Shown here: piece after piece, positions 11,315-54,088 of the stretch
Layout of the letters: each line of letters opens with the position of its first letter
Position numbering within the stretch: position 1 is the stretch's first letter
Source: Candidatus Aminicenantota bacterium
GTDB taxonomy: Bacteria > Acidobacteriota > Aminicenantia > S016-38
Direction: 5' to 3'
DNA: 64,000 nucleotides
NCBI GenBank assembly: GCA_027068075.1
Contig: JAMOUJ010000006.1
Location: 282,706-346,705, forward strand
The notes under the pieces: model-generated
Told to the model about the DNA's origin: nothing
Seen by the model: the letters and a program-made list of their open reading frames with translations, nothing else
The model's database searches: none
Translations under genes and position numbers: made by a program

Positions 11315-11331
11315 TGCAAGAAGCGTGCCAA
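11315..11331 (-). promoter_or_regulatory. sigma-54 promoter of pilA
   Basis: On the minus strand the sequence reads TTGGCACGCTTCTTGCA, a near-perfect -24/-12 element (GG-N10-GC, GG at 11329-11328, GC at 11317-11316). Transcription should start near 11304, about 25 bases before the pilA start codon. Confidence 0.9.
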
Positions 11332-19607: not shown

Positions 19608-20807
19608 ATGCCTGTATTTGTTTTCAAAGGTGTCAATAGAATGGGGCAGATGGTAAGCGGCGAAAGGGCCGCCCCCTCGGAAGAGGATGTGAGAAGAGCC
19701 CTTCTGCGGGAGGGAATTCGCATATCCTATTTAAAGAAGAAAGGCCTGGAGTTAAAACTCCCAAAATTCCGCAAATCCGCCAGCCTTAAGGAACTGGCTA
19801 TTTTTACCAGGCAACTTTCCGTCATGGTCAACGCAGGCCTGGCCATAGACCAGGCCCTTTCTGCCCTGGCGGAACAACAGACAAATAAAAGGTTCAAGGC
19901 CATACTTGAGAAGGTAACCGAGGATGTCAGGGGGGGTAGTTCCCTTTCCAACGCCTTCGCCAAGCATCCCGATGTTTTTGATTCCCTGTATGTGAACATG
20001 GTGGCCGCCGGAGAAACCGGTGGTACCCTGGACATAATTCTCCAGCGCCTTGCCGATTACCTGGAGAAGATGAAGGCCCTGGTGAACAAAATAAAGTCCG
20101 CCCTGGCCTACCCCGTTGCGGTTCTAATCATAGCGGTTCTCATAACCGGTTTTATTCTCTGGAAGGTGATTCCGGCCTTCGCCAAACTTTACCACGACCT
20201 GGGGGCGGAACTTCCCCTTCCCACCCAGATAGTTATAGCCGCCAGCAATTTTCTGGTGCACCGGTTCTATTTGTGGATGGGAGGACTCATACTCCTCGTG
20301 GTCCTCTATAAAATCTATTCCTCCACCGCCATGGGGAAACAGACCATAGACAAGATAAAACTCAAACTCTGGGTAGTGGGTCCGCTAATTTTGAAGGGAT
20401 CCTTGGCCAAGGTGATGAGAACCCTGGCCACCCTGGTTACTTCCGGCGTGGACATTCTTCTGGCCCTGGAAATAGCCGCCAAGACCGCAGGAAACTCCGT
20501 AATTGAAAAACTCATTCTGGATGCCCGGGAGGAGGTGGCGGCCGGAAAAAGTTTAAGCGAGCCCCTCAAAAAGAGCCCCTACATTCCTGTGATGATAAGC
20601 CAGATGATAGAGGCCGGAGAGGCCACCGGAGCCATGGACACCATGCTTAACAAAATAGCGGACTTCTACGAAGAGGAAGTGGACGCCGCCGTCAGCGCAC
20701 TCATCTCCGTAATGGAGCCCATTATGGTCCTTTTCCTGGGAGGGCTCGTGGGAGGCATAGTTATTTCTATGTATCTTCCCATCTTCACTCTCCTGGGAAG
20801 ATTTTGA
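19608..20807 (+). CDS. pilC: type IV pilus inner membrane platform protein PilC
   Basis: A 399-residue protein with two GspF domains (about residues 65-190 and 270-390), each with the pattern FTRQLSVMVNAGLAIDQAL or MRTLATLVTSGVDILLAL. Three transmembrane helices lie near residues 165-190, 215-240 and 370-395. It links the PilB and PilT motors to the pilus base. The stop codon overlaps the ATG of the kinase gene (TGATG shared bases). Confidence 0.94.
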   Translation: MPVFVFKGVNRMGQMVSGERAAPSEEDVRRALLREGIRISYLKKKGLELKLPKFRKSASLKELAIFTRQLSVMVNAGLAIDQALSALAEQQTNKRFKAILEKVTEDVRGGSSLSNAFAKHPDVFDSLYVNMVAAGETGGTLDIILQRLADYLEKMKALVNKIKSALAYPVAVLIIAVLITGFILWKVIPAFAKLYHDLGAELPLPTQIVIAASNFLVHRFYLWMGGLILLVVLYKIYSSTAMGKQTIDKIKLKLWVVGPLILKGSLAKVMRTLATLVTSGVDILLALEIAAKTAGNSVIEKLILDAREEVAAGKSLSEPLKKSPYIPVMISQMIEAGEATGAMDTMLNKIADFYEEEVDAAVSALISVMEPIMVLFLGGLVGGIVISMYLPIFTLLGRF

Positions 20808-22066
20808 TGTCCCGGAAGATCCTTAAATTAATAGAAATAAGGATATTTGCCGGTTTCTTTCTCCTTCTGTCCATCATAATCATTCAACTGGCCTTTCTCA
20901 ATCTCTTTCCGGCGAAGTTTTTCTTCTCCTTCCTGGGGCTTCTCTTTACACTTTCGGTTCTCTACTTGTTTATGCTTCGGATAGGGATCAGGGAGGGCCT
21001 TCTCATAAACATTCAATTGGTAGGAGATTGGTTTCTCATAAGTTATCTCATCCTGAACACCGGCGGTTACGAAAGTCTGCTTTATTTTCTGTTCGTGTTT
21101 TTGATTCTGGAGGCCTTTTATTTTTTCAAGAACAAAAAAACCCTTCTCGTAGTTTCTCTAACCCCTCTGCTTTCCTATCTGATTTTTGCCTTCACCTCCT
21201 TTTATTTTAAAGTTCCCAACACGGAGTTCAGTTACAGCAAGTTCACCACGGGACTCATCATCTACTTTCTGGGATTCCCTGCCCTGGCCTACCTTCTGGT
21301 AATTTCCAGGGAGGAGTTGAGCAAACTTACCCGGGGGTTGATTCTCAAGGAGGAGGAAAAAAACTTCGCCCTGAAACTGGACGAAATCATGGAGAAGGCC
21401 CACCAATGTGTGGTCTTAATCCAGGAGGGAAGGCTGGAGGTGGTGGGGCGGGCCTGCCGGGGTTTTCCCGTGGAGGAATTGGTGGATAAAAGGGGGACGG
21501 TGCGGAGCCGGGGAAGGATTTACAGGGTTTCCAGACTTCCCCTTTCCTACGGTGAACTGCTGATAATAGACGATTACACCCAGCGGTGGTTCACCTTCAG
21601 GCGGGAGGGGGTGAGGGAAACCATATCCATAATTTCCCACGAACTCAGAAATCCTTTGGCCTCCATCCTGGGAGCCCTTCAATTGATGCCCTCTCTGGAC
21701 GAAGGCAAAAAGAAGGAGTTTATGAATAAAATCAGGGAAAGGGCGGAGAAAATCAACGAAATCATCCTCCGTTGGGGTTCCCTGGGGAGCAATCCTTCCC
21801 CGGGAAAGGCCCTGAGCAAACTTAAAGAATTGCTTTCCGTGGAGGGGGCTAAGTTTGATGTGGACTTCAGGGAGGGGGAATTTATACTGAGGAGGACTCC
21901 GCCTCTTACCGAAAAGGAAATTACCACCATACTTCAGCCCAATTTAAAGGAACTTCCCACGGGAAAGGGTTTTGCGGCCTTGGAACTGGCCTACATAATA
22001 GCCGAGATAGATGGAATCCTCACCGCCACCCCCCAGGAGGTCGTTTTAAAATGGAAAAAATACTGA
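20807..22066 (+). CDS. pilS: PilS-like membrane sensor kinase with reduced ATPase domain
   Basis: A 419-residue inner membrane protein: about six hydrophobic helices in residues 8-185, a linker, and a histidine box ISHELRNPLASI. After the histidine only ~140 residues remain. The usual N box (NxxxNA) and G1 box (DxGxG) are not found; a weak G2-like stretch (PTGKGFAALELAYIIAE) is near the end. The position between pilC and pilR supports a PilS role, but ATP binding looks lost, so it may act as a phosphatase or ligand-gated partner or need another kinase. The start is ATG at 20807. Confidence 0.75.
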   Translation: MSRKILKLIEIRIFAGFFLLLSIIIIQLAFLNLFPAKFFFSFLGLLFTLSVLYLFMLRIGIREGLLINIQLVGDWFLISYLILNTGGYESLLYFLFVFLILEAFYFFKNKKTLLVVSLTPLLSYLIFAFTSFYFKVPNTEFSYSKFTTGLIIYFLGFPALAYLLVISREELSKLTRGLILKEEEKNFALKLDEIMEKAHQCVVLIQEGRLEVVGRACRGFPVEELVDKRGTVRSRGRIYRVSRLPLSYGELLIIDDYTQRWFTFRREGVRETISIISHELRNPLASILGALQLMPSLDEGKKKEFMNKIRERAEKINEIILRWGSLGSNPSPGKALSKLKELLSVEGAKFDVDFREGEFILRRTPPLTEKEITTILQPNLKELPTGKGFAALELAYIIAEIDGILTATPQEVVLKWKKY

Positions 22067-23388
22067 TAGTGGAGGACGACGAGCAACTCCTTGAAATTCT
22101 CTCCCTGTTCTTCCAGTCCAAGGGCTACCGGGTGGAGGGGGCAGGCAGTGCCGAGGAGGCCCTGGAAAAATATCCCATGGTGGACCTGGTTATAAGCGAT
22201 ATAAAACTTCCCGGGGACATGGACGGCATCGGCCTGCTGGAGAGGATTAAGAAGACATATCCTGAGATACCGGTGGTTCTCATGACTGCCTACGCCTCCG
22301 TGGGAGATGCGGTAAAGGCCCTGAAAATGGGAGCCTACGATTACATTCTCAAGCCCTTTGACCTTGAAACCCTGGAAATAGTGGTAAAGAAGGCCCTGGA
22401 GGAGAGTTCCCTGCGGAGGGAGGTGGAGGAACTCCGCCGGGAACTGGGAGCCATTTACCAGGAGAAGCGGATGGTGGTAAAAAGCCCCGCCATGGAGAAG
22501 ATAATGGACCTGGTCAGGAGAATAGCCATCAGCGATGTGAATGTGCTCATAACCGGGGAGAGCGGCACGGGAAAAACCCTCCTGGCCAGGGTTATCCACG
22601 ACCTCAGCCCCCGGAGGAAGGGGAAATTCGTTTCCATAAACTGCGCCGCCATTCCAGAGAACCTCCTTGAAAGCGAACTCTTCGGCTACGAGCGGGGGGC
22701 CTTCACCGGTGCTGTTTCGCAGAAAAGGGGGCTTTTTGAGGTGGCCCGGGGAGGCACACTCTTCCTGGACGAAATTTCCGGTATGAGTCTCGCCATGCAG
22801 GCTAAACTTTTGACCGCCATCCAGGAGAAGAAAATACGCCGGGTGGGGGGGTACGACGAGATAGAGGTGGATGCAAGGATAATAGCCGCCACCAACCAGG
22901 ACATAGAGGCTCTGGTGAAGGAGGGTCAATTCCGGGAGGACCTTTTCTACCGCCTGGATGTGGTGAGGATAGAACTTCCGCCGCTCAGGAAGAGGAAGCA
23001 GGAGATCCCACTCCTGGTTCAGCACTTCATAGAGGAGTTCAACCGCAAACACGGGAAGAATGTTCTGGGCGTTGATAAGGAGGCCCTGACGGCCCTGGAG
23101 ACCTATTACTGGCCTGGGAATGTCAGGGAACTCCAGAATGTTATAGAAAGGGCGGTGGCCATCCAGAGGGGGCCCTACATAACCAGGGAGGACCTTCCGG
23201 AGAAGGTTTTTGAGTGGAAGGACCTGGAGGAGGATTTCAACCTGGAGGAATACCTGGACAACGAGATGAGGAAATTCATGAAAAGCGCCATGGTCAAGGC
23301 CGGAGGAGACAAAAAGAAGGCGGCGGAACTTCTGGGGCTGTCCTACAGGTCCTTCAGGTATTACTGGAAAAAACTGGGGATGGAATGA
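22051..23388 (+). CDS. pilR: sigma-54-dependent response regulator PilR
   Basis: A 445-residue NtrC-type activator. Receiver domain (about 1-120) with the acidic pair EDD, phospho-Asp in LVISDIKLPG, and the Lys of LKPFD. AAA+ domain with GESGTGKT, the sigma-54 contact loop GAFTGA, Walker B LFLDEIS and PPLRKRKQEIPLL. C-terminal Fis-type helix-turn-helix (KKKAAELLGLSYRSFRYY). Expected target: the sigma-54 promoter of pilA in this window. It overlaps pilS by 16 bases. Confidence 0.94.
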   Translation: MEKILIVEDDEQLLEILSLFFQSKGYRVEGAGSAEEALEKYPMVDLVISDIKLPGDMDGIGLLERIKKTYPEIPVVLMTAYASVGDAVKALKMGAYDYILKPFDLETLEIVVKKALEESSLRREVEELRRELGAIYQEKRMVVKSPAMEKIMDLVRRIAISDVNVLITGESGTGKTLLARVIHDLSPRRKGKFVSINCAAIPENLLESELFGYERGAFTGAVSQKRGLFEVARGGTLFLDEISGMSLAMQAKLLTAIQEKKIRRVGGYDEIEVDARIIAATNQDIEALVKEGQFREDLFYRLDVVRIELPPLRKRKQEIPLLVQHFIEEFNRKHGKNVLGVDKEALTALETYYWPGNVRELQNVIERAVAIQRGPYITREDLPEKVFEWKDLEEDFNLEEYLDNEMRKFMKSAMVKAGGDKKKAAELLGLSYRSFRYYWKKLGME

Positions 23389-41417: not shown

Positions 41418-41439
41418 AACCCAAAGCCCCGCCGGTTTT
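41416..41439. terminator. possible bidirectional terminator
   Basis: AAAACC (41416-41421) and GGTTTT (41434-41439) flank a 12-base loop and provide a T-run in both directions between two convergent genes. The stem is short and AT-rich, so support is weak. Confidence 0.35.
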
Positions 41440-42752
41440 TACCGCTCCTCCGCCACCTTCAGCGCCCTGGTGAGTACGGGGTCCTTTCCGGACTTTATGT
41501 CCTCAACGGTTAATTCAACCTTCTCGTCGGGGCATATTCCCCGTCCCTCAAAGGGGGTTCCGTCGGGCATGTACTCCCTTTTCGCCCCTATGGCTACGGA
41601 GATGTCCCGGTTGAACATGTAGATGTAGGGCTGGCCGGAACTGCCGGCGGTTCTTTCGCCCACGATGAGGGCCCTGCCGTTGTCCTTAAAGGAGACCACG
41701 AAGTCTTCGCAGGCAGAGGCGCATCCTCTGTCGGTGAGGATGAGGAGTTTTCCTCTGAAGAGGGTGTTTTCGGGTTTCTGATAGGAAGGCGTCCACATGA
41801 GGTAGGAATTTCCGAAAAATCCCGTGAGCATTTCCAGAGGTTTTCTGGATTCCTTCGGTATGAGGTTACCGTAGGAGGCCAGAAATTCCTTGTAGGACCG
41901 GAAGAGGGCGATGCTGAGGAAGGTGGCTTCCGTCCAGAACCGGTAGGGCCTGTCCTGAAGGGCGTCCACCAGGGCCGAGGGGGTGTTTCCTCCGCTGTTG
42001 CCCCGCACATCCACTATTAAAACCCGGGCTCCGGAAAATTTTTTCACGAGTTCAAGGGCCTTCTTCTCAAGATCAGGCCTTTCAAAGCCGGGTATTTTTA
42101 TGTAGGCGACGCCTTCCTTCAGCCATTTCCCGGAGGCCTCCTTCTTGGCAGGAGGGGTTGGGGGGGCCTTCCTTTGAATTTTGACCTTTCCCTTCCCGGA
42201 AACCTGGAGGGTGAACACCCGGGGAAATAGGAACCTTCTGTATTGAATTTTAACCCTGGCCTCCCTGTCGCTGGAGGCGTTGATGTATTTTTTCTTGCTC
42301 TGGTAAAAGTCCTCAAAATCCTGGCCGTCTATTTTTTCTATTATGTCGCCCCTTTCCAATCCGGGGACCCGGCTTTCGGTGACCACCCATTTCCCTGAGA
42401 TATAGCGGAAGCGGAAGCCCAGGGGCTGGTTGAAGTTCTTAATAAGCCACCTGTCGTAATACCAGGAATGCCCGTTTCGCAATTTACTTATGAATTCCAT
42501 CATGAGCAGGTCAAAATCAAAACGGTTTTCGGTGTCCACGGCCCTTTTCAGGAATTCCCTGAAGGTGGAGTCCAGGGAAAAGTTGGGGATGGAATTCCAG
42601 TGGGAGAAATAGGTGTTTACCGCGGCGTAGGTCTTGGACAATATGAACATCCTTTCCGCCAGGGGAAGGGTGGTGGGTTCCGCCGGTCGGGCGAAACTTC
42701 CCGTAATAAACAGAGCCACCATGACCATAAACTTCAAAGCCTTCTTTTTCAC
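41439..42752 (-). CDS. secreted S41-family peptidase
   Basis: A 437-residue exported peptidase. The GTG start is chosen because AAGGAGG lies 5 bases upstream and a signal peptide begins there (KKKALKFMVMVALFITG). A PDZ-like part (about residues 95-150; GLERGDIIEKIDGQDFEDF) precedes the S41 domain (VLIVDVRGNSGGNTPSALVDALQ), with the nucleophile serine in LTDRGCASACEDF. S41 enzymes such as CtpA and tricorn core cut C-terminal peptides. Another part of the extracytoplasmic peptidase set. Confidence 0.88.
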   Translation of the reverse strand: MKKKALKFMVMVALFITGSFARPAEPTTLPLAERMFILSKTYAAVNTYFSHWNSIPNFSLDSTFREFLKRAVDTENRFDFDLLMMEFISKLRNGHSWYYDRWLIKNFNQPLGFRFRYISGKWVVTESRVPGLERGDIIEKIDGQDFEDFYQSKKKYINASSDREARVKIQYRRFLFPRVFTLQVSGKGKVKIQRKAPPTPPAKKEASGKWLKEGVAYIKIPGFERPDLEKKALELVKKFSGARVLIVDVRGNSGGNTPSALVDALQDRPYRFWTEATFLSIALFRSYKEFLASYGNLIPKESRKPLEMLTGFFGNSYLMWTPSYQKPENTLFRGKLLILTDRGCASACEDFVVSFKDNGRALIVGERTAGSSGQPYIYMFNRDISVAIGAKREYMPDGTPFEGRGICPDEKVELTVEDIKSGKDPVLTRALKVAEER

Positions 42753-42827
42753 ATTTACCTCCTTAGTCCTTCTTATCAATTCTTGAATACGGAAAACGGA
42801 AGGAAAGGTTTGAGAACCCGGGCCAGT

Positions 42828-43271
42828 TCAGAACTCCACCTCGTAGATTTCGTAATCGGTGGCCTTCATGCCCAGGGCTTCGTAAACCCCCATGGCCGGG
42901 GTATTCTCCCTGTCCACATAAAGCCTGAGTCCGCAGGCCCCCGCTTTCCTGGCCCTTTCAAACACATGGAGGAAAAGCCTCCGGAAAACCCCCTTTCCCC
43001 TTTCCTCCGGCAGGGTGTAAACGCTCTGAAGCCACCAGAAGTAGGCGTTCCTCCAGTCGCTCCACTCCCGGGTCACCATCAACTGGGAAATTATCCTTCC
43101 CCCTTCCTCCGCCACATAATAGGCGGCTTCCACATCACCCCTTAGAACCGCTGCGGTTCCTTTCTCTACCACCTTCGGGTTCAGAACTTTCCCTTCGGTT
43201 TCCCGGGCCATGGCCAGGTTGTTGGCGGTGATTTGCTTTAAATCCTCTATTCTTCCCTTCCTTATCTCCAT
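42828..43271 (-). CDS. GNAT-family N-acetyltransferase
   Basis: A 147-residue acetyltransferase. The acetyl-CoA loop region LQSVYTLPEERGKGVFRRLF is clear (Q/RxxGxG/A-like), and LRLYVDRENTPAMGVYEALGM is the usual second half. The substrate is unknown. Preceded by GGAGG on the minus strand. Confidence 0.88.
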   Translation of the reverse strand: MEIRKGRIEDLKQITANNLAMARETEGKVLNPKVVEKGTAAVLRGDVEAAYYVAEEGGRIISQLMVTREWSDWRNAYFWWLQSVYTLPEERGKGVFRRLFLHVFERARKAGACGLRLYVDRENTPAMGVYEALGMKATDYEIYEVEF

Positions 43272-43280
43272 ACCTCCATT

Positions 43281-43309
43281 TTACCAGGCGTTGGAGGAAG
43301 TTATATAAT
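43281..43309 (+). promoter_or_regulatory. sigma-70 promoter, leaderless, of the signalling island
   Basis: TTACCA (43281-43286), a 17-base spacer and TATAAT (43304-43309), 6 bases before the ATG at 43316. No Shine-Dalgarno sequence at the correct distance. Confidence 0.65.
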
Positions 43310-43315
43310 TTTAGT

Positions 43316-44521
43316 ATGAGGGTTTTGCGGTTCGGGATGGTGGGCGTGATCCTTTCCGGCCTTCTCCTTCCCCTTTCCCTGAAGAAAGTTGAGGAAAGGG
43401 ATTGGGAATTTCCAGGGGCAAAACTACACATGGTGGCCGGGGACTTCGCCGTGGTCAACTGGCAGGGGCTTTCCCTGGGCATTGACGGGTGGGGCAGGAG
43501 GGCCTTCACCGTTCCCGTGAGGAATTACATCATAAGCGGAGGGAAACTTTACTGCCTGGAAAAAAGGGCCCTTTTGAGGTTCGGCAGGGACGGCCTGGAG
43601 AACATGTGGGAGATAAAGGACCCTCCCCCGGTCCTTTCGGGCTTCAGTTTTGAGGTAGTTAGGGCAGGGGATTCCTTTTTCCTGTTTTACCAGTTGGCCC
43701 CCATCTACAGGGAGGGAGGGGGAGCCAGGGAGGTTTTTCTGTACAGGCTGGAGAGGGGCGTTTTTAAGCGGGTGTTCAGGACCAAAACGGGTCTGTGCAT
43801 GAGCGCATTTCGTTTCACCCCCTGGGGATTTCTCTTCGTGGCACCCCAGGTTCTAAACGGGACCTTTTACCGTGGGTTTACCGACTTCAGGGCCGCCGTG
43901 GGCCTTTTGAGCCCTCGGGGGGTGATGCTTTCCCACCTGAACTTCATGGGGAGGTATGTGTATCCCAGGGTTTACAAAATAAGGGGAAAGAGGGCCTTCG
44001 TAGGTTGGAGTGAAATATGGGAAGGAAAACACCGCTCCGGCCTTCTGAGGTTGGACCTTGAGACCTGGACCGTGGAAAAGGAGGTGGGGTTTGAGGGTTT
44101 CGGGAATACCTTTACCTTTCCCCTTGACCTCTTTCTACCTGGGAAATTTCCCGTATTCATCTTCACCGCCTCGGGGAAACTCCTGGTCTTCAGCGACGAC
44201 CTTGAACTTATAAGGGAGGTCCCCCTGGGCCTGCGGCCTCCCCGTTTGTCCTCAAAGGAGATTTACCTGCCGGTGATGATGTACATGGGAAAAACGAAGG
44301 GACATTATTTCCTGTTTATACATCCCAGGAAGATGCACGCAGACCCCTATGTGTTTCTACCACAACCCCTGGGAAAACACCTCGTCCTTCTGGACCGGGA
44401 CCTTGATGTGGTGGAGCATATTTCGGTGTCCGGAAACGGACAGATTTTCCTTGACGCCGGGGAGGGAATCGTCTCCGTGGTGAAGGGAGGGAAAATTGAG
44501 GTATTCAGGTTTTCTCCTTAG
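43316..44521 (+). CDS. secreted beta-rich protein, probable propeller, function unknown
   Basis: A 401-residue protein with a signal peptide (about 1-22) and repeated short beta units (YIISGGKLYCLEKRALLRFGRDG, LVFSDDLELIREVPL, HLVLLDRDLDVVEHISV) as in beta-propeller proteins. No catalytic motif is recognised. The kinase gene that follows begins inside it and has a similar N-terminal region, so this may be a periplasmic partner or a diverged duplicate. Confidence 0.6.
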   Translation: MRVLRFGMVGVILSGLLLPLSLKKVEERDWEFPGAKLHMVAGDFAVVNWQGLSLGIDGWGRRAFTVPVRNYIISGGKLYCLEKRALLRFGRDGLENMWEIKDPPPVLSGFSFEVVRAGDSFFLFYQLAPIYREGGGAREVFLYRLERGVFKRVFRTKTGLCMSAFRFTPWGFLFVAPQVLNGTFYRGFTDFRAAVGLLSPRGVMLSHLNFMGRYVYPRVYKIRGKRAFVGWSEIWEGKHRSGLLRLDLETWTVEKEVGFEGFGNTFTFPLDLFLPGKFPVFIFTASGKLLVFSDDLELIREVPLGLRPPRLSSKEIYLPVMMYMGKTKGHYFLFIHPRKMHADPYVFLPQPLGKHLVLLDRDLDVVEHISVSGNGQIFLDAGEGIVSVVKGGKIEVFRFSP

Positions 44522-46535
44522 TTTAAGTCTTTTCCTCTACGCCTGGCAGCCTCCCTACCGGGTGAAAATCTTCCCTTCGCCCTATCCCATATCCTCCTTT
44601 ACCTTCTGCCGCCGGCCGGTGGTTTTGGCCGGAGACAGGGTTTTCGCCCTGGGAGAGGAGAAACTGGAACCCCTCTTCGCCCTTCCCTTCAGGGCCCGGG
44701 GAATATACTGTTTTGAGGACAAGTTGTTCTTCACCGGCAACGGTGGGATTTTTGACGAAAAGGGAAGGAGGGTTTTCGCCTGGAAGGGGAGGCCCCTAAG
44801 GGTTATGGAGTACAGGGGGGACCTCTGGATGGTTTTTCCGGACAAAATCCTTTCCCTGGGGGGACAGTCCTTCTCCCTTCCCTCGCCGCCCCTCATCCTA
44901 GGAAGGGGGGCCGTGGTGGGGCGGGATTGGGCCCTGGTGGAGGGAGGGAAATGGCTGAAACTCAGGAGGAAGGTGAGTTTTACCGGCCTTCGGATGGGGC
45001 TGGCCTGGTGGGACGGTCGGTCTCTTCTTTACGCCTCCTCGCCCTCGGAATTCTGCCTCACCGGGGAGAGGTTTCGCCAGTTCAGGGTTAAGGGAGAATT
45101 GAAGGGGGTGGGGACGATGAAGGAACTTCTCTGGGCGGTTACCGCCTCGGGAAGGAGGGGGAAACTTTTGATTTTTCCCCGGTTTCCAGAGAAGAAAATA
45201 CCGCCCAGGTGGAGGGAACAAACCCTGGAGTACATTCCCCACCTGGTGGGAAGCAACGGCTCCTTCCTGGTGGTGGCCGGTAAACTGGGACCCATTGAAA
45301 TATATCCTTCCAGTTTGGAGTTTTCCTTTTCTATACCGGGGCTTAATTATAGCCCCCTGATAGACCTCAGGATAATGGATGTGGACGGCAACGGGGAGGA
45401 GGACATGGTTATGAACATAAAGGGGAGTTTCTCCGAGAACGCCTGGCGGGGGATCGCCGTCCTTTATTCCCAGATGGGGGCGGTCTTCCGGGAGATAAAG
45501 AGGTATGAGAGGCTTTACCGCCGGGCCCTGAGGATGGGGAAGTACAGGGAGGCTCTCAAAAACCTGGAGGAGGCCCTTTACCTTTCCAATTATGTCTCCT
45601 TCTCCCGGACCAAGGAACTCTTCCGGGAGAGGGCGGCCCTGTTGCGGAGAATGAGGAGAATGGAGGCCTTCAAAAACATAGGACACGGGGTTTTGAGCCT
45701 GGCGGTTTTTCTCGTTCTGATCTTCCTTCTGATGAGGAGGAGGGAGAGGGAGAGACCTCCCCGGGACGGAGCCCTGGAGGAGATATCCGGGTCAAAATTT
45801 CTCCACACCGTCCAGCAGGAACTGAAAGCCCTCCTGTCCTTCACCGGAAGGGATTTTGAGGAGGAATGGAGAAGAAGGAAAAAGGCCTTTGAGGAACTTT
45901 ACAGAAACTTCACCTCTCCGGAGGCTTCCTTTGAGGGGGCCTCCAGGGTTTGGAGGAAACTCCACGCCAGGATAAGCAAGAGACTGAAGGTTCTCGCCGA
46001 GAGGCCCGACAGGCGGGCCGCCGAGGAACTTCTCCTTCTGGTTCTGGAACTCCGGGACAGGGTTCATCGGTTGAGGACCAGCCTCCTGTCCGTTCTCCGC
46101 CGGGCCGTGGAAAAGGAGTACATCCTGGCCTCCCAGAGGGGCATAAAAATGGTGGTGGACCTCCGTCCCACGGGGACCATTTTCAAGGTTCTGTATCCGG
46201 AGACGGCCTTTAAATACGAGACGGCTTTCACCAACATCATAAGGAATGCCATAGAGTCCTTTGAAGGAGTGGAAAGGGAGATCCCTGTGATTCTGGTGGA
46301 GGGGGAGGAGGACTCCCGCCATGTCTTTATAAGGATAAAGGACAACGGCAAGGGTATAGATCCCCGGGACCTTGACCGGATATTTAGCCCTGGGTGGACC
46401 AAGGGCAAGGAGGGGGGGACCGGATTTGGTCTTGCGGGGGTGGACGAACTTTTTAAAAAATACGGGCACATAGAGGTCCATTCCACCCCGGGGAAAGGCA
46501 CGGAGTTCATCATAAGGTGGTATGCAGTGGCATGA
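44496..46535 (+). CDS. sensor histidine kinase with periplasmic propeller domain and atypical phosphoacceptor region
   Basis: A 679-residue protein. TTG start with GGGAGGG upstream; signal peptide, then a beta-propeller-like region (about 20-330) ending with a calcium-site-like DVDGNGEED; a TPR-like helix pair (about 335-390); a membrane helix (LSLAVFLVLIFLLM, about 400); and a cytoplasmic kinase part. The ATPase domain is intact: N box NIIRNAIESF, G1 DNGKGI, G2 GTGFGLAGV. A canonical H-E/D-x-x-N/T box is not seen; DRVHRLRTSL or LHTVQQEL could carry the phosphorylated His. The response regulator gene follows within 30 bases, so both likely form a pair. Confidence 0.82.
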   Translation: MRYSGFLLSLSLFLYAWQPPYRVKIFPSPYPISSFTFCRRPVVLAGDRVFALGEEKLEPLFALPFRARGIYCFEDKLFFTGNGGIFDEKGRRVFAWKGRPLRVMEYRGDLWMVFPDKILSLGGQSFSLPSPPLILGRGAVVGRDWALVEGGKWLKLRRKVSFTGLRMGLAWWDGRSLLYASSPSEFCLTGERFRQFRVKGELKGVGTMKELLWAVTASGRRGKLLIFPRFPEKKIPPRWREQTLEYIPHLVGSNGSFLVVAGKLGPIEIYPSSLEFSFSIPGLNYSPLIDLRIMDVDGNGEEDMVMNIKGSFSENAWRGIAVLYSQMGAVFREIKRYERLYRRALRMGKYREALKNLEEALYLSNYVSFSRTKELFRERAALLRRMRRMEAFKNIGHGVLSLAVFLVLIFLLMRRRERERPPRDGALEEISGSKFLHTVQQELKALLSFTGRDFEEEWRRRKKAFEELYRNFTSPEASFEGASRVWRKLHARISKRLKVLAERPDRRAAEELLLLVLELRDRVHRLRTSLLSVLRRAVEKEYILASQRGIKMVVDLRPTGTIFKVLYPETAFKYETAFTNIIRNAIESFEGVEREIPVILVEGEEDSRHVFIRIKDNGKGIDPRDLDRIFSPGWTKGKEGGTGFGLAGVDELFKKYGHIEVHSTPGKGTEFIIRWYAVA

Positions 46536-46543
46536 TTTTTGCT
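46527..46543 (+). promoter_or_regulatory. sigma-54 promoter upstream of the activator gene
   Basis: GTGGCATGATTTTTGCT fits the -24/-12 consensus (GG at 46529-46530, ten bases, GC at 46541-46542). It overlaps the end of the kinase gene; transcription would start near 46553, about 12 bases before the activator ATG. Confidence 0.75.
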
Positions 46544-46564
46544 TGTTCTTTTTTGAGGTGAATC

Positions 46565-47926
46565 ATGCTTGTTTACATCGTAGACGATGAGAAAAGGATT
46601 TACCGGGTCATCAAAAAATTTTTCCCTGAGGTGGAGGTCCGTTATTTTCCCGACGGTCCCAGTCTCTTCGGGGCCCTGGAGGAAAGGCTTCCGGACCTGG
46701 TCCTGGTGGACCTGGTGTTCAAAACGACCTCTTCCGACCGCCTCCTCTCCAAAAACCTTCCGGAAAAGGAAGGTCTTGCGATAAGCGAGAGGATAAAAGA
46801 AAAATATCCGGAACTCAGGGTTTACCTCATATCCCGCTACGCGGACATGGATGTGCTGGGCTATCTCTCCAGGAAGGGTATAGAATTTCTGGATACCGGG
46901 TGGGACGATTTCAGCCTCAAGATGAAACTGGAGAGGGCCCTGGGACGGGAGGACCCGCCGGGAGACCACGGGGACCTTCAGAAGACCCTGGCAAAATTTG
47001 GGTTTTACACCGCCAGTCCCAGGATCCTTTTCCAGGTGAAGGAACTGGACCTCAGTCCGGGCTCCCGGGAAAAGGTCCTCTTCGTCGGGGAAACCGGCAC
47101 CGGGAAAAACACCCTGGCCATGGCGGTTCACAAAATCGTGAACGGGACCTCCGCCCCTTTCCTTTCCGTCCACCTTCCCACGGTGCCGGACAGCCTCTTT
47201 GAATCGGAGATCTTCGGATACGAAAAGGGGGCCTTCACCGGGGCCGAGACCACCAAGAGGGGCGTTCTGGACCGGGCGGCGGGGGGCACGGTTTTCTTTG
47301 ACGAGATAGCCCTCATCGGCGAAAGGCTCCAGTCCAAACTTCTCCAACTTCTGGAGGCTCCCTCCTTTTTCAGGGTTGGGGGAACCAGGGCCGTGCCCAT
47401 AAAGGCGAAGATCATGGGAGCCACCATGATGGGAAAGGTTATGCCGGCCCTACGGTTTCGCTTTCACAAGGTGATTTACCTTCCTCCCCTGAGGGAGAGG
47501 AGGGAGGATGTAGCCCACATGGTGGAGGTTTATCGCCGGAAGGGTTTGAAACTCACCCCCTCCTCCGAGAGGTTTTTGAAGGAGGAGGCCGATTATCCGG
47601 GAAACATGAGGATGCTCGTAAACATCCTGGAGGAACTTCTCAGGTCCGGAGACGGGTCCCTGGAGAGAACCTACGAGGCCTGGAGGCAACACCTGAAGGA
47701 TACCGACGGCGTAGAAGAGACCCCCGGCACCGGGGTGGGCCTCCGTGATCTGGTGGACTGGATGAGAAGAAACAAAAAATCCTTCAGGGAAATGGAGGAC
47801 GAAATCCTTGTGGCCCTGTTGAAGGAGGGGGCTTCAACGGAGGAAATAATGGCCCTTCTGGGCATAGGAAGAACCACCTTCTTCCGCAAGAAAAAGGAAC
47901 TGGCATGGAAAATGGGCAAGAATTAG
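46565..47926 (+). CDS. sigma-54-dependent activator with atypical receiver domain
   Basis: A 453-residue bacterial enhancer-binding protein. Receiver (about 1-135): VDDE and phospho-Asp candidate in LVLVDLVF are present, but a ~17-residue insert follows, and the conserved Lys-Pro is replaced (FLDTGWDD). AAA+ domain: GETGTGKN, GAFTGA intact, Walker B VFFDEIA; the arginine-finger region is shortened (MPALRFRFHKVIYLPPLRERRED). C-terminal HTH: TEEIMALLGIGRTTFFRK. GAGGTGA precedes the ATG. It is probably the partner of the kinase and the activator of the two nearby sigma-54 promoters. Confidence 0.88.
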   Translation: MLVYIVDDEKRIYRVIKKFFPEVEVRYFPDGPSLFGALEERLPDLVLVDLVFKTTSSDRLLSKNLPEKEGLAISERIKEKYPELRVYLISRYADMDVLGYLSRKGIEFLDTGWDDFSLKMKLERALGREDPPGDHGDLQKTLAKFGFYTASPRILFQVKELDLSPGSREKVLFVGETGTGKNTLAMAVHKIVNGTSAPFLSVHLPTVPDSLFESEIFGYEKGAFTGAETTKRGVLDRAAGGTVFFDEIALIGERLQSKLLQLLEAPSFFRVGGTRAVPIKAKIMGATMMGKVMPALRFRFHKVIYLPPLRERREDVAHMVEVYRRKGLKLTPSSERFLKEEADYPGNMRMLVNILEELLRSGDGSLERTYEAWRQHLKDTDGVEETPGTGVGLRDLVDWMRRNKKSFREMEDEILVALLKEGASTEEIMALLGIGRTTFFRKKKELAWKMGKN

Positions 47927-47951
47927 ACCGGGGATGGAAGGGTTCCCTGGA

Positions 47952-47987
47952 GTTCCATGATGGCACCGGTAGGTTCCAGAATGGAAC
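47952..47987. promoter_or_regulatory. tandem enhancer dyads GTTCCA-N3-TGGAAC
   Basis: GTTCCAGAATGGAAC (47973-47987) is a perfect dyad. GTTCCATGATGGCAC (47952-47966) is a copy with one change. Centres are 21 bp apart, two helical turns, and about 170-190 bp upstream of the -24 element at 48150. Additional half-sites: GTTCC at 47942 and TGGAAC at 48050-48055. Likely binding sites of the activator encoded just upstream. Confidence 0.7.
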
Positions 47988-48147
47988 TATGCGGGCCGCC
48001 CTGGCGGCGTTAAATTCGGAGGGTATTTTAGGAGTTTCTAATCCCAAAATGGAACTGAAGGGATGGGGGTATCGGGTAAAGGAAGGAGGGAAGGTGAGAA
48101 GAATCAGGTCTCCAGGGCATTTTCTTTCGATCGCCCTTTTTAAATTT

Positions 48148-48164
48148 TAGGCACGGTTTTTGCT
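48148..48164 (+). promoter_or_regulatory. sigma-54 promoter of the PPC-lipoprotein gene
   Basis: TTAGGCACGGTTTTTGCTG region: GG (48150-48151), ten bases, GC (48162-48163), with the GGCACG and TTTGCT halves of the consensus. Transcription would begin near 48174, 24 bases before the TTG start. This intergenic space (47927-48197) otherwise holds the enhancer dyads and no credible gene. Confidence 0.85.
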
Positions 48165-48197
48165 GTCAGGGGAATGGGAGTATTTAGGAGGTGAATA

Positions 48198-49004
48198 TTG
48201 AGGTATTTTTGGGTTAACCTGGTGGGGGCTCTGGTCTTTGCTGCCGCAGTATCCAGCGTTCTTACCGGGTGTTGCACGCTCTTTTGTAATTCCGGAAACT
48301 CCGATTCTTCGGAGGCGGAGTTTCTTTCCATGGGGAGGTGGCAGGTGGGCGAGGTTGGTCCCGGGGGGGTGAAATGGTACAGGTTCAGGGTTGGGAAGCC
48401 GGGGGAAGTGGCCGCCCAGTTGATTTTAAACGGTGATTACTGCACCCACATATACATCTACGACACCGATCAGACCACCGAGGTTGCCTGGGATTTCACC
48501 TGCAGAAGGGGGGAGGCTTATCTGGCGGAGGCGAAGTACGATCTGGGGACCGGGGAATATTATCTGAAGGTGGAGGGAAGGCCGGGGACCGGTTACAGGC
48601 TCCGGGTGAAAAACAGGCAGGTGCGCTGGAGAGCCGATGCCGAGCCCAACGACATTGACGGCGAAGCCCGGAGAGTTTTTCCGGGAATGTGGGTGAGCGG
48701 AGCGGTGGGTTTTTACTCGGGTGGCCATCGGGATGTTCAGGATTGGTATTCGTTGAAGGTGGATTTCCCCGCCAGACTCACCGCCCTCTTAAATGTGGAC
48801 AGGGATAGGTGCGCCTACCTTTACCTTTACGGGGGGGACGGGGTGGATGCCCTTGCCCGGGGATGGACCTGTAGCGAATCCCATTCCGCCAAACTGGATT
48901 ATCACGGGGTCAGACCCGGAAGGTATTATCTGGTGGTTCAGGCCCCTTTTGGAACGGGCTACCGGTTCCTATACAAACTTCTCCGAAGGGAAGGGGAAAG
49001 ATGA
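48198..49004 (+). CDS. lipoprotein with two PPC-type beta domains
   Basis: A 268-residue exported protein. TTG start after TAGGAGGTGA. The signal ends in the lipobox LTGC, so Cys24 is probably lipidated. Two similar domains follow (about 45-135 and 150-262), each with the bacterial pre-peptidase C-terminal pattern: GGVKWYRFRV / DVQDWYSLKV, THIYIYDTDQ / CAYLYLYGGDG, and GTGEYYLKVEG / RPGRYYLVVQA. There is no catalytic domain. A role at the cell surface is likely; the exact role is unknown. Probable sigma-54 target. Confidence 0.82.
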   Translation: MRYFWVNLVGALVFAAAVSSVLTGCCTLFCNSGNSDSSEAEFLSMGRWQVGEVGPGGVKWYRFRVGKPGEVAAQLILNGDYCTHIYIYDTDQTTEVAWDFTCRRGEAYLAEAKYDLGTGEYYLKVEGRPGTGYRLRVKNRQVRWRADAEPNDIDGEARRVFPGMWVSGAVGFYSGGHRDVQDWYSLKVDFPARLTALLNVDRDRCAYLYLYGGDGVDALARGWTCSESHSAKLDYHGVRPGRYYLVVQAPFGTGYRFLYKLLRREGER

Positions 49005-49113
49005 ATCTTGCGGGAGGGCACAGAACCCTTCGGAGAGTTTTCTTTTAAGGCTTAAGGGATGTCGTGGGAAGTTCAATGTTTTTACGGGGGTGAGGAGGAA
49101 AGTGGGGTGGGGA

Positions 49114-49152
49114 ACCTCCCCTTCCGCCTTCCGCACAGGCCCCCGGGGAGGT
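49114..49152 (+). promoter_or_regulatory. possible RNA hairpin covering a ribosome binding site
   Basis: ACCTCCCC (49114-49121) is perfectly complementary to GGGGAGGT (49145-49152), which is the Shine-Dalgarno region of the next gene. A GGGG at 49109-49112 could pair with the same CCCC instead. The loop is 23 bases. This could limit translation of the PP2C-like protein. Confidence 0.4.
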
Positions 49153-49156
49153 GAAC

Positions 49157-49738
49157 ATGAAAATTGAATACACGGCCTGTAAGGCAGGGAAGGAAAACCG
49201 GAGCATCCTTCTGCTCAACGGGAAAATCGTTGAGGAGGAGAGGTGGCAGGGTTTTGGTTTGATCCTGGGGGAGGCCGCATACTTCGCCCTGGGATGGACC
49301 CTGGAGCCCCGGGGTCGGGCCCGGGAGAGAACCCGGGAGATTCTGGAGGAACTCCGGTCCTGCCGGGGGATAAGCGGGGAAAGGGTTGAGGAGATAATCC
49401 GCAGGGTTTCCCGGGACGGCCAGGAAAATTTTATCCTTCTGGTCATCAAGGACGATAAATTTCGGGTTTACCGGGCCGGGGACGGTTTCCTGTACCGGAA
49501 GTGGGGGAGGAAGTTGCTCCCCCTGATTTCCAGCGGTGAGGCCTCCATCTTCCCATGTCATCGCCTGGGACAGGGGATGATACAGGCGGTGGAACTCACC
49601 CTCGTGGACGGGGAGGTCCTCATCATGACCAGCCCCCCGGTGGAAAAGGATGAAGTCTTGTATCCGGAACTTCTGGCCTCTGAAAATTCTCCCGGGGAAA
49701 CCTCCTTCATCAAGGTGGAAGTGAAGATGAGCGGATGA
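49157..49738 (+). CDS. PP2C-like phosphatase domain protein, reduced
   Basis: A 193-residue protein. The middle (NFILLVIKDDKFRVYRAGDGFLYR) and end (LTLVDGEVLIMTSPPVEKDE) resemble the 'VGDSRxY' and 'GDxLLLxSDG' segments of PP2C/SpoIIE phosphatases, but the aspartates are partly replaced (SPPV where SDG is expected) and it is shorter than usual. It could be an inactive relative or a divergent enzyme. ATG at 49157 after GGGGAGGTGA; a GTG at 49151 is less likely. It follows the lipoprotein gene and may share its sigma-54 transcript. Confidence 0.5.
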   Translation: MKIEYTACKAGKENRSILLLNGKIVEEERWQGFGLILGEAAYFALGWTLEPRGRARERTREILEELRSCRGISGERVEEIIRRVSRDGQENFILLVIKDDKFRVYRAGDGFLYRKWGRKLLPLISSGEASIFPCHRLGQGMIQAVELTLVDGEVLIMTSPPVEKDEVLYPELLASENSPGETSFIKVEVKMSG

Positions 49739-49747
49739 TGACCCGGC

Positions 49748-51364
49748 TTACCTCAGGAGGACCGCTTCCACCCGGGGCATCCTCTCCACCCTGTAGACGG
49801 GAACCATCCAGGGTTTCCCGCCCCATTCTGAGACCAGGGTGGCGTCAAAAAGACCCCAGGTGAGAAACCCGTCGGGGCTTTTGGGTTCCAGCATCACCGC
49901 CGCCAGCCTGGAGAGGGGCTGGTTCATGGGCACGAGGAAGGAGCCTTCGGGGATTTTCACCTCTTTCCTTTGGTAAAAACCCCGGACCTTTTTTAAGTGA
50001 TGGCCCTGGTAGGGCAGGGGGGAGGCTTTTATTTCCTGGATGTTGAAAACCTCCGCTTCGGTCCGGAGGGGACGGAGGATTTTTTCCACCCTTATTCCGT
50101 TCCTCCGGAGGATTTCCACCGTGTGGGTCCCTGCCGGCAGTATTATGTATCCTCCGGGAAGTTTTACCGAAGCGGTGGGTTCCACGGGGGCGTAGAGGTA
50201 AAGGTGATAGGTGGCAGGGATGTCGGTCTTTTTCACCAGAAGGCCCCCGAACCAGGAGGGGTATTTTTCCCTTTTTTCCGGGGGAATTTTTTCCAGTTTA
50301 AACCTGAAGGAAGAAAGGTCAAAGTCCAGTATTTTCTTGAGGCGAAATTCCACCCCGAAGTCTGAGCCCGCCACCCGCTCCATCGCTCTGCGGTCGGCTT
50401 CCCTTTCAATTTCTCTCATTTCCCGTCCGTGGCGGGATGTAAAACTCAGGATGGCCCTCAGGAAGGCGTGGGCTCCCATGACCCTGGTGCGGAAGTCCGC
50501 CCGGGCGTAGTTCTCGTCCAGGATGGCAAAGCGGTTCCTCAGGCCCACATAATTGGTGCTGTATCGGGCTCCCACCGCCCGAAAAATCCAGCCCCTTTCC
50601 GGGGACTTTCTGTCCAGGAAGTTTCCGTAGGGGATTGGTCGGTAACCCAGTCCCTTCATGAGTTGGTTTATTTCCGGAAACATTTTTTCCCAGGAGTAGG
50701 AAGTCAAGGCCGGGTCCGTCCATGGGGCCATCTGGGGTTGCCAGGTTACCACATGGCGGTGGTAAACCCCGTCGGTGGTGTGCATGTCCACGAAAAGAAT
50801 CGGGTCCCACTCCTCCAGAACCCTTACCAGCCCCCGCACCTCGGGGCTTTCCTGCTTCACGAAATCCCGGTTGAGGTCCAGGCCTTGGCCGTTGTATCTT
50901 ACCCCCACCAGGGGAGGGCCCCCGTCCTCGTGGCGGTTTCTGCCGAGTTTTTCGTTCCCGTCCGGGTTGAATATGGGGCAGAAGAGGATTACCTGGTTTT
51001 TCAGCAGATCGGGATATTTGCCCTGGAGGAGTTCCCGGATCATCATGAGGGAGGCCTCCTTGCCCTCCACCTCCCCGGCGTGGATGTTGGCCTCTATGTA
51101 AACAACTTCCTTGCCCAGGGCTCTGGCCTCCCGGGGACTCCCCACCCCTTCTTCGCTTACTATGGCCAGGGGAATTTTCCTTCCCTCCCGGGAGGTGGCC
51201 AGGAATTTTATCCTGAGTTTCGCAGAAGAGCGGCGCAGGGTCCACAGGAATTCCATGACATCCCGGTAGGTGGAGGTCTCGGTGAAATTGGTCCTTTCAG
51301 CCCTGGTTAAAGGGGGGCCGGCCACCAGGGGGAGCACCAGGGCCAGCCAGAAAAGTTTCCTCAT
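49748..51364 (-). CDS. secreted M14-family zinc carboxypeptidase
   Basis: A 538-residue exported metallopeptidase. Signal peptide about residues 1-22; zinc ligands H95 and E98 in ANIHAGEVEGKEA and the His in FVDMHTTDG; RYNGQGLDLNRDF is the substrate-binding arginine region typical of M14. The C-terminal ~200 residues are beta-rich, perhaps a peptide-binding domain. It starts in the stop codon of the S9 gene (4-base overlap), so both are one operon read leftward. Confidence 0.88.
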   Translation of the reverse strand: MRKLFWLALVLPLVAGPPLTRAERTNFTETSTYRDVMEFLWTLRRSSAKLRIKFLATSREGRKIPLAIVSEEGVGSPREARALGKEVVYIEANIHAGEVEGKEASLMMIRELLQGKYPDLLKNQVILFCPIFNPDGNEKLGRNRHEDGGPPLVGVRYNGQGLDLNRDFVKQESPEVRGLVRVLEEWDPILFVDMHTTDGVYHRHVVTWQPQMAPWTDPALTSYSWEKMFPEINQLMKGLGYRPIPYGNFLDRKSPERGWIFRAVGARYSTNYVGLRNRFAILDENYARADFRTRVMGAHAFLRAILSFTSRHGREMREIEREADRRAMERVAGSDFGVEFRLKKILDFDLSSFRFKLEKIPPEKREKYPSWFGGLLVKKTDIPATYHLYLYAPVEPTASVKLPGGYIILPAGTHTVEILRRNGIRVEKILRPLRTEAEVFNIQEIKASPLPYQGHHLKKVRGFYQRKEVKIPEGSFLVPMNQPLSRLAAVMLEPKSPDGFLTWGLFDATLVSEWGGKPWMVPVYRVERMPRVEAVLLR

Positions 51365-54033
51365 TTGTTCACCTTTTTAACCACCCTGAACCCCACCAGC
51401 ATGGGCGGAGGAGGACTGTAGGCGGCCCTTTCGTCGGAGGTGTGCCAGCAGGAGAGCCCCATCACCTTGCCCTGACCTTTTTCCGAAAGGACCCATTCGG
51501 CAAGGTTGCCCCTGAGGTCGTACATCCCCTGGATCGGGTAAAAACTTCCCACGGGTTTTATCAGGCTCTCAAATCCCAGATTTTTTTCCGCATACTGACG
51601 GATGCTTTCCGCCTCCTGGGGATTGGGGGAATATCCCGCCCAGAAATCCAGGGTGTTTCCCGATTTTTTGCCCAGGGAAAGGAGTTTTTCAAATTCCTTT
51701 TCCGTGGGAAGTTCGTATTTTTCTCCGGTTTTTTCCGAAAGCCACCGGCAGTAGGCCACCGCTTCCCTGAAGGTAATGCCGCTGGCCGGCAGATTCCCGG
51801 TTTCCTTCCCCCAGTTGTGCTTGAATTCCGGATGCTCCTTTACAAATTCCCCGAACTGGGCCCTGGTTATTTCAAACCGGGAGACGAGGATTCCCCCCGC
51901 TTCCACCGTCTCCGGGACCAGGACCCCATTCTTCAAGAGGCCGTATTCGCCGTCCACCGAGGAAACCCTGGATAGGGCGATTCGCCTTTCCAGGGGAGAG
52001 TCCTGGGACACGGGCTTTTCTTCACCGGGTTTTCCAAGGAGGTATTTCTCTATCCAGGCCACCTCTTCCTCCATCTTCTTCCTCCGATGGGACGGTTTTC
52101 TCAGCCCGTGGGGTTCCCCGGGAAAGAGGATGAAGCGTACGGGGGCCTTTCCTATCCTCTTCAGGGCCCTGAAGAGTTGCCATCCCTGCTCCGTGGGGAC
52201 ATTTTTGTCTTCGGTTCCGAAGAAGATGATGGTGGGGGTGGTTATTTTTCTGGCTTTGAAGAGGGGGGATTTTTTTATGTAGGTTTCCGTGTTGTCCCAG
52301 GGAGTTCCGCCGAAGTAGAGTTCGTCAAACTGGGGGCCGAACATGCAGTTGCCGTAATCGCTGGTCCAGTTCACATCCCCGGCCCCGGGGGCCGCCACCT
52401 TAAATCGCCGGGTCTCGGTGATTAGGGCTATGGTCAAGATGGCCCCGTTGCTCCATCCGGCCACCGCCAGTTTTTCCGGGTCCACCATCCCCCTTCCGAT
52501 GAGGTAATCCACCCCGGATAGGATGTCCGGCACCTCCAGTTCGTAGTAGTGGCCTATGATGGATTCCACGAAGTCAAGCCCGTAGTTGGAACTTCCCGAG
52601 TAATTCACGAAGAGGACGAAGAAGCCCCGGTTGGCCCAGTAATGGGGGTAGTAGGCCCAGGAGTTTTTGAACCAGTCGGCGTCGTAGCCGGCGGGTCCCC
52701 CGTGTATGTTCAGCATGAGAGGGTATTTCTTTCCCCTTTCGTATCCCTTGGGGTAGTACAGGATGCCTTCAATAACCCTTCCCCCGGCGGATTTCCACTT
52801 TACCACCTCCGTGCGGGCCAGGAAGCGGTCCTTAAGGTAGGAATTTATGCGGGTAATCTGGCGGGGCGACGAGAGATCTTTTCCTTCCACAGAGGAAAGG
52901 TAGAGTTGAGGAGGCTGGCTGGAGGTGCTCCTGAGGAAGAGGAGTTTTTTCCCGTCCCGGGAAAGGACAAGTCCCATGATGGTCTGGAAGAACTCGTCCT
53001 TTATCCGGTGAACCTTCCACCGGCGGGGGTCCTTTCCTGGGGCCTCTATGATAATGGGTATGTTCCGGGCACCGTTGGCCAGGGAGGCGGCCACCAGGTC
53101 CTTTCCGCAGGTTAGCCTTCCGTGATAAAGCCCTCCGATGCCCCAATCCCAGTGGAGGGGAACCCTTTCGTAGGAATCGTCGGGAACTGAATAAAGGTAG
53201 AGAAGTTCTATCCCCGGGCCCCTTTTTTCCTCGTGGCGGGAGTAGGTCTCCAGGAAGACCACCCGGTCGTCGTCCATCCATTGGAAATTTGTGGGGGAAA
53301 AGTACTTATCCTTGAAGATTTCCTTTTTCTCACCTGTCTTAAGGTCCCAGAGGAAGTACTTGGGCCGGGGCTCCGGCTCCGCCACATAGGAGGGGGTGTC
53401 TATGTGGGTGGTGATTACGAACCTTCCCGAAGGGGAGACGGAGAAGTCGGTTATCCTGTCCCGGTTCAGGGTCAGTCTCCTTACCTTCCGGGTTTTAAGG
53501 TCAACGGAAAAAAGCCTTACCGGGAAGAAGAATTTTTTGTCCTCCACGATAACTGAATCGTCCTTGTTTTTCTTCCTGTCCTTTTCCAGCCGGTAGGTTT
53601 TTTCCCGGGCCAGGACTATGATCTCGTGGTCGTTTCTCCAGCGGAAGTCTATTACCCCCCTGGGCATGGAAGTTATTTTTTCCGGTTCCCCGCCGGAGAG
53701 GTGCAGGATGTAAACCTGGGGTTTTTCCTTCCGGTCCGATATGAAACCTATTTTCCTGCCGTCGGGTGACCACCGGGGGGAGAATTCCGAGTGCTTTCCC
53801 CGGGTGATCTGGATCGGTTCTCCCCCTTCGGCTTTGCTCAGCCATAGGTGGGAGAAGACCTTGTTTTCCTTTTCGTCCGCTCCGGCCTGAACCCAGACGA
53901 TCTTCTTCCCGTCCGGGGAGATGGAGAACCTGGATATGGTCTGGTAGTTTAGGACATCCTTCAGGGAGAAGTCCTTGCCCCAGGCCGCCCACACCGTCAA
54001 TAAAGCGGTTATAAATACTGCAATTTTTCGCAT
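51361..54033 (-). CDS. S9 prolyl-oligopeptidase-family peptidase fused to a formylglycine-generating-enzyme-like domain
   Basis: An 890-residue exported protein. The start MRKIAVFITALL follows AAGGAGG, 16 codons inside a longer frame. Signal peptide, WD40-like propeller (about 20-400: SPRWSPDGRKIGFISDR, FSVSPSGRFVITTH), then the alpha/beta hydrolase with nucleophile VAGWSNGAILT, acid TEDKNVP and GEPHGLRKP. The last ~200 residues are an FGE-sulfatase/SUMF1 domain: VSRFEITRAQFGEFVKEHP, ITFREAVAYCRWLSEKTGEKYELPTEKEFE, GMYDLRGNLAEWVLSE and PMLVGFRVVKK. The domain may bind substrate or act as an ergothioneine/FGE-like oxidase; unclear. Confidence 0.9.
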   Translation of the reverse strand: MRKIAVFITALLTVWAAWGKDFSLKDVLNYQTISRFSISPDGKKIVWVQAGADEKENKVFSHLWLSKAEGGEPIQITRGKHSEFSPRWSPDGRKIGFISDRKEKPQVYILHLSGGEPEKITSMPRGVIDFRWRNDHEIIVLAREKTYRLEKDRKKNKDDSVIVEDKKFFFPVRLFSVDLKTRKVRRLTLNRDRITDFSVSPSGRFVITTHIDTPSYVAEPEPRPKYFLWDLKTGEKKEIFKDKYFSPTNFQWMDDDRVVFLETYSRHEEKRGPGIELLYLYSVPDDSYERVPLHWDWGIGGLYHGRLTCGKDLVAASLANGARNIPIIIEAPGKDPRRWKVHRIKDEFFQTIMGLVLSRDGKKLLFLRSTSSQPPQLYLSSVEGKDLSSPRQITRINSYLKDRFLARTEVVKWKSAGGRVIEGILYYPKGYERGKKYPLMLNIHGGPAGYDADWFKNSWAYYPHYWANRGFFVLFVNYSGSSNYGLDFVESIIGHYYELEVPDILSGVDYLIGRGMVDPEKLAVAGWSNGAILTIALITETRRFKVAAPGAGDVNWTSDYGNCMFGPQFDELYFGGTPWDNTETYIKKSPLFKARKITTPTIIFFGTEDKNVPTEQGWQLFRALKRIGKAPVRFILFPGEPHGLRKPSHRRKKMEEEVAWIEKYLLGKPGEEKPVSQDSPLERRIALSRVSSVDGEYGLLKNGVLVPETVEAGGILVSRFEITRAQFGEFVKEHPEFKHNWGKETGNLPASGITFREAVAYCRWLSEKTGEKYELPTEKEFEKLLSLGKKSGNTLDFWAGYSPNPQEAESIRQYAEKNLGFESLIKPVGSFYPIQGMYDLRGNLAEWVLSEKGQGKVMGLSCWHTSDERAAYSPPPPMLVGFRVVKKVNK

Positions 54034-54088
54034 AACTTCCTCCTTACTATTTTTTACGCTTTTTCGGGAAAACTTTCCCACGGAAGGT

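Follow-up and report, generated by a model that had tools for sequence, protein, structure and literature searches.

INTRODUCTION

The closest described parallel to the locus analyzed here is CbrA-CbrB-CrcZ, a system described as unique to Pseudomonadaceae, in which a small open reading frame (ORF), cbrX, overlaps the start of the kinase gene and is translationally coupled to it, a promoter inside the kinase gene, at its 3′ end, drives an NtrC-type regulator, and a small RNA is made from a sigma-54 promoter that immediately follows the regulator gene (PMC8871633). Autoregulation has been reported for ZraR (PMC12316311), and sigma-54 control of the bacterial exterior, lipoproteins included, is a known general, statistical theme (PMC3162934). 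The present locus is an island with a sensor operon, an NtrC-type activator and two sigma-54 sites, and lies in a stretch of 64,000 nucleotides from a Candidatus Aminicenantota bacterium (hereafter the window; contig C6, positions 282706-346705, of the 1.9-Mb genome G000, which has 9 contigs). It was compared within a family set of seven genomes, in which G003 is of the same genus as G000, and G005 and G006 are of another genus.

The island is probably a sigma-54 two-component module that is self-wired, faces the envelope and has been gained or lost as a block. This reading builds on gene order, domains, both sigma-54 sites, the dyads, the presence or absence of the block and rpoN, all seen in the DNA or by comparison. 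The comparative evidence for the proposed self-wired circuit is good, and the island is real, more than chance, lineage-restricted and with a core conserved across two genera.

Like CbrA-CbrB-CrcZ, the module has an ORF-kinase overlap, a promoter at the kinase 3′ end and, in the G005/G006 layout, a predicted sigma-54-dependent RNA behind the regulator. However, CbrA carries an SLC5 transporter and a PAS domain, whereas the island kinase has a soluble strand-rich ectodomain and matched neither; and the gene behind the second sigma-54 site (P2) in G000 encodes a lipoprotein, not an RNA, the candidate RNA being confined to G005/G006 and without an Rfam family. The island would thus work like CbrA-CbrB-CrcZ, its nearest analogue, without being a member, as sensor and cargo look unrelated. 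A previous annotation made without database searches (the sequence-only reading) had not recognized the arrangement as a described system; this stands for membership, and no description of the arrangement was found in the open-access literature, but not for the layout, given the close parallel (PMC8871633). The lipoprotein output and the extracytoplasmic sensing would also fit the theme of sigma-54 control of the exterior, although this is a theme rather than a system and does not cover the RNA output of G005/G006.

RESULTS

Organization of the island

The five ORFs lie where the sequence-only reading had placed them, all on the plus strand. Sigma-54 core sites were scored against TGGCACGNNNNTTGCW and dyads against GTTCCANNNTGGAAC, and the features of the island are as follows.

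43272..49747, no strand: whole island, between a GNAT gene (42828-43271, minus strand) and an M14 peptidase gene (49748-51364, minus strand)
43281..43309, plus: TTACCA-17-TATAAT, a predicted sigma-70-like promoter that precedes the sensor operon
43316..44521, plus: prop1, ORF of 401 aa, secreted, strand-rich putative propeller partner, with orthologues in G003 and G005
44496..44521, plus: 26-nt overlap of the prop1 3′ end and the kinase start, predicted translational coupling
44496..46535, plus: sensor kinase, 679 aa (ORF, Pfam)
46528..46543, plus: P1, sigma-54 -24/-12 site TGGCATGATTTTTGCT, 1 mismatch
46565..47926, plus: NtrC-type response regulator (the activator), 453 aa, with atypical receiver, GAFTGA and C-terminal helix-turn-helix (HTH)
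47952..47966, plus: predicted enhancer dyad 1, GTTCCATGATGGCAC, 1 mismatch
47973..47987, plus: predicted enhancer dyad 2, GTTCCAGAATGGAAC, 0 mismatches
48041..48055, plus: predicted enhancer dyad 3, ATCCCAAAATGGAAC, 2 mismatches
48149..48164, plus: P2, sigma-54 -24/-12 site AGGCACGGTTTTTGCT, 1 mismatch
48198..49004, plus: orphan lipoprotein, the cargo of P2, with two weak PPC-like domains (ORF, Pfam)
48975..49046, plus: hairpin resembling a terminator, with T-rich tail, where the P2 transcript probably ends
49151..49738, plus: ORF of an orphan 195-aa protein

From these elements we infer ligand sensing, a partner complex, phosphotransfer, binding of the activator to DNA, activity of the promoters and the existence of the RNA, in the following scheme. 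Prop1 and the outside domain of the kinase, made together through the translational overlap, would act as one receptor; ligand binding would switch the kinase, which would phosphorylate D49 of the activator; the activator would oligomerize on the three phased dyads that closely follow its own gene, with its GAFTGA-bearing AAA+ motor opening the sigma-54 polymerase at P2. A lineage-specific output would then be expressed, i.e. an orphan surface lipoprotein in G000 or an RNA of ~65 nt in G005/G006, while through P1, on the kinase stop codon, the activator may raise its own level.

Sigma-54 sites and dyads recur around a conserved activator

Both sigma-54 sites proposed by the sequence-only reading, one before the activator and a second one, were found at the expected places and recur in relatives. 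P1 spans the kinase stop codon, upstream of the activator gene, and its G005 counterpart TGGCATAAAATTTGCA sits exactly at the kinase stop codon as well, hence in both complete loci; the G006 locus starts inside the activator at a contig end. All three loci keep P2 downstream of the activator gene (TGGTACAGTTTTTGCA in G005, TGGCACGAATTTTGCT in G006). In the related DNA scanned, sigma-54 cores with ≤1 mismatch occurred at ~0.008 per 200 nt. rpoN is encoded in G000 (PF04552, E 1e-55) and in 7/7 genomes of the family.

Enhancer dyads had likewise been predicted, and three 15-bp dyads occur between the activator and P2 in every locus, of the GTTCCA-N3-TGGAAC type in G000 and GTCTCA-N3-TGAGAC-like in G005/G006. 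Their spacing is 21 and 68 bp in G000, 21/20 bp in G005 and 21/21 bp in G006, so that between the genera the half-sites change (GTTCCA to GTCTCA) while the position is kept and the 21-bp phasing mostly kept; the activator HTH differs between the genera too. Dyad 2 is the only perfect copy across the 1.9-Mb genome. In simulated sequence a dyad pair 20-22 bp apart arose in ≤0.1% of trials, a figure that is descriptive because the pattern was derived from the same sites; independent support for the predicted dyads is their shared location, phasing and number.

The same sites bear on the alternative of an ordinary NtrC-type operon with its real targets elsewhere, in which the lipoprotein and the 195-aa gene are accidental neighbors and P2 is minor. 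Such operons are common, with about 16 strong sigma-54 AAA+ matches in the G000 genome, and neither the lipoprotein nor the 195-aa protein is conserved; against this, three species have three dyads and P2 immediately after the activator, and elsewhere in G000 only single, one-mismatch dyads were found, and no sigma-54 core (≤1 mismatch) lay within 300 nt of any of them. These one-mismatch dyads, lacking a suitably placed core, were rejected as extra regulon sites, and we consider the ordinary operon unlikely.

With 2 mismatches allowed, a search with the GTCTCA dyad gave no information, since the controls were as frequent as the matches. Three weak GTCTCA-type dyads within ~320 nt on G005 contig C133 (L084 1495-1811) are possibly another target; the sole sigma-54 core with ≤1 mismatch in L084 is ~1.6 kb away from them. 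Elsewhere in the window, a pilin-like (type IV) gene (10806-11279, minus strand) lies behind a perfect sigma-54 site, TGGCACGCTTCTTGCA (11315-11330, minus strand), and 20804-23388 (plus strand), behind a PilC-like gene, encodes a multi-transmembrane kinase whose H-box, HELRNPL, is normal, and next to it a canonical NtrC-type regulator; this pair is probably PilS/PilR. With the pair present, the pilin-like gene looks like a classic PilR target and serves as a positive control for the sigma-54 motif in G000.

The island is present or absent as a block

In G003 the M14 stop and the GNAT start share a 4-nt overlap (ATGA) with no intervening DNA, i.e. an empty site, and the G000 island fills exactly this junction. 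In G005 the module lies between HU and prfB, which adjoin each other in G004, where the module is absent. Its flanks differ between G000 and G005, so the location of the module varies from species to species, and elsewhere the whole block is lacking, which bears out the claim of a self-contained unit. At the G003 site, insertion is a simpler reading than deletion.

The core is lineage-restricted. A kinase search of 60 relatives returned real orthologues only in its own family, namely G003 (N-terminal part) and G005, and the activator search added G006; a prop1 profile found no further members in 297 genomes of the phylum, and an activator homologue scan of the named genomes gave two spurious Alistipes matches only. 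In G005, prop1, the kinase, the activator, the dyads and P2 follow one another in this order. Kinase identity between G000 and G005 is 26% (sensor proteins overall 22-26%), and that of the activators 44%.

The GC content of the island equals that of its surroundings, with no sign of recent import, and neither convincing terminal repeats at its ends nor a mobility gene was seen; an origin argued from foreign composition or end repeats was rejected. A defense-system reading was rejected as well, the PADLOC matches being only the generic AAA+ of RtcR-like proteins. Beside the island, an S41 peptidase gene (41439-42779, minus strand) likewise has no counterpart in the syntenic region of G003, so that presence and absence differ there a second time; on the other side, the product of 51361-54081 (minus strand) looks by eye like an S9-type peptidase, with a C-terminal part similar to a formylglycine-enzyme/sulfatase-modifying domain.

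The output behind P2 differs between lineages

In G000 the lipoprotein gene begins 271 nt behind the activator, and because of the terminator-like hairpin at its end the 195-aa gene is probably outside the same transcript. No match to either protein was found in the family or class relatives searched. The 'PPC lipoprotein' of the sequence-only reading holds as a lipoprotein, but its two PPC stretches are below the Pfam cut-off (PF04151, 19.1 bits versus gathering 25.9); its 'PP2C-like' protein was not borne out, as the 195-aa protein matched neither PP2C nor any other profile family even at E 10. The check that it had proposed, a gene set conserved in relatives, came out for the core, kept in G005 and in the truncated G006, and failed for these two proteins. 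The suggested targets thus appear to be the variable rather than the conserved part of the island: of a sensor and target that are both extracytoplasmic, the sensor parts stand and the conserved targets do not. Since the output is not conserved and appears to be an RNA in G005/G006, a change of the cell surface would fit the G000 species only, as a hypothesis.

There is no space for a protein behind P2 in G005 and G006, where the end of the convergent prfB lies within ~100 nt. Behind P2 follow AGGGGTGGGCCnnAATAGATTTT...GCTCTC and then a hairpin with a T-rich tail, a predicted ~65-nt terminated transcript. Length differences between the two genomes shift any reading frame, so the segment is read as a small RNA candidate, and the P2 output there is apparently a small RNA. 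The transcript could instead be part of a terminator shared with prfB, or a prfB antisense, and not a regulator, as the closeness of prfB in both genomes would allow; yet G005 and G006 agree almost letter for letter over the ~35 nt that precede the hairpin, with far more divergence in the flanks, and the motif, present once in each, is absent behind prfB in the module-less G004 and from all five other family genomes, so we give this explanation hardly any credence. The candidate RNA folded overall no better than shuffles, and Rfam gave no match in the window or the related loci, the candidate included. A 5′ motif common to the window P2 leader and the G005/G006 RNA was not alignable and is not claimed.

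Sensor pair and activator

The prop1-kinase gene overlap occurs in G000, G003 and G005. The kinase comprises a strand-rich ectodomain with a DVDGNGEED loop at residue 295, TPR-like helices, a transmembrane segment, an atypical DHp and a HATPase_c domain (PF02518, 68.5 bits, E 8.5e-19) with N, G1 and G2 boxes NAIES, DNGKG and GFGLA. The activator matched the sigma-54 AAA+ family (PF00158, E 3e-36) with GAFTGA at residue 222, in agreement with the sequence-only reading, and its receiver has D7, D8 and D49. With its receiver, GAFTGA-bearing AAA+, HTH, upstream dyads and -24/-12 promoter it resembles NtrC/ZraR-type regulators, but it differs by an insert behind D49 and, although near NtrC/AtoC in NCBIfam, is far under all equivalog cut-offs (best NtrC, 169.9 versus 558.6 bits).

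Several observations weigh against the proposed self-wired module. The module is known from three loci only, with that of G006 truncated; no HisKA family match was found in the kinase at E 1, so that the conserved SGSxFxH histidine H437 is a candidate phospho-histidine only; the receiver match is marginal (PF00072, 31.6 bits versus cut-off 30.2); the conserved lysine, another difference from NtrC/ZraR-type regulators, is absent from the G000, G005 and G006 activators; and the arginine-finger region of the G000 activator has lost one of two arginines and three nearby residues. The propeller fold of the sensor proteins is unconfirmed as well. No Pfam match was found for prop1, Reg_prop/Y_Y_Y ectodomain repeats were not found in the three members (FG-GAP_3 and Kelch_2 weak only), PDB searches with prop1, the kinase ectodomain, the lipoprotein and the 195-aa protein gave no significant match, and AlphaFold2 single-sequence models (predicted local distance difference test scores of 37 and 48) were mostly strand, of low confidence and with no interpretable fold. 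Thus the 'secreted propeller-like protein' is secreted and strand-rich and the 'propeller histidine kinase' is a HATPase_c kinase, both without support for the propeller.

G003 holds a kinase-less pair (L048 8870-11285), consisting of prop1 and the ectodomain, TPR-like and transmembrane parts of the kinase with a clean stop after the transmembrane segment; the kinase core is absent and no close relative of the activator was found. Frames and overlap are intact, at 37-40% identity to the G000 counterparts, so the outside parts were kept as a pair that lacks a signalling output; they may be remnants or serve some function by themselves. A degrading module, with the activator losing its motor, the receptor pair drifting and the G003 pair as a later stage, would account for the altered arginine-finger region, the losses in G003 and the low sensor identity to G005, but all frames are intact, promoters and dyads are preserved, and the G003 pair has kept its similarity and overlap; we regard degradation as quite improbable and retain the self-wired module.

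DISCUSSION

The observation of the sequence-only reading is partly confirmed, in that its coordinates hold while its domain labels are soft, and its interpretation is partly supported. A further-reaching possibility, toward which we lean less than halfway, is a mobile sensory cassette with exchangeable output: receptor pair, kinase, activator and enhancer/sigma-54 socket would travel together, and the gene in the socket would be exchanged, coding for an orphan surface lipoprotein in one case and for a new small RNA dependent on sigma-54 in the other, with a layout evolved independently of CbrA-CbrB-CrcZ and a receptor pair that may work kinase-less, as in G003.

If the self-wired module is true, a full path from outside receptor to enhancer to promoter would be packed in ~6 kb and move as one piece. 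The output slot, altered between close species, would be a natural test of output rewiring while the circuit stays, with the dyad half-sites and the activator HTH changed and the output an RNA or a protein. Seen in so distant a lineage, the parallel to CbrA-CbrB-CrcZ would then mean that an NtrC-type gene with its own sigma-54-dependent RNA is a recurrent, searchable design.

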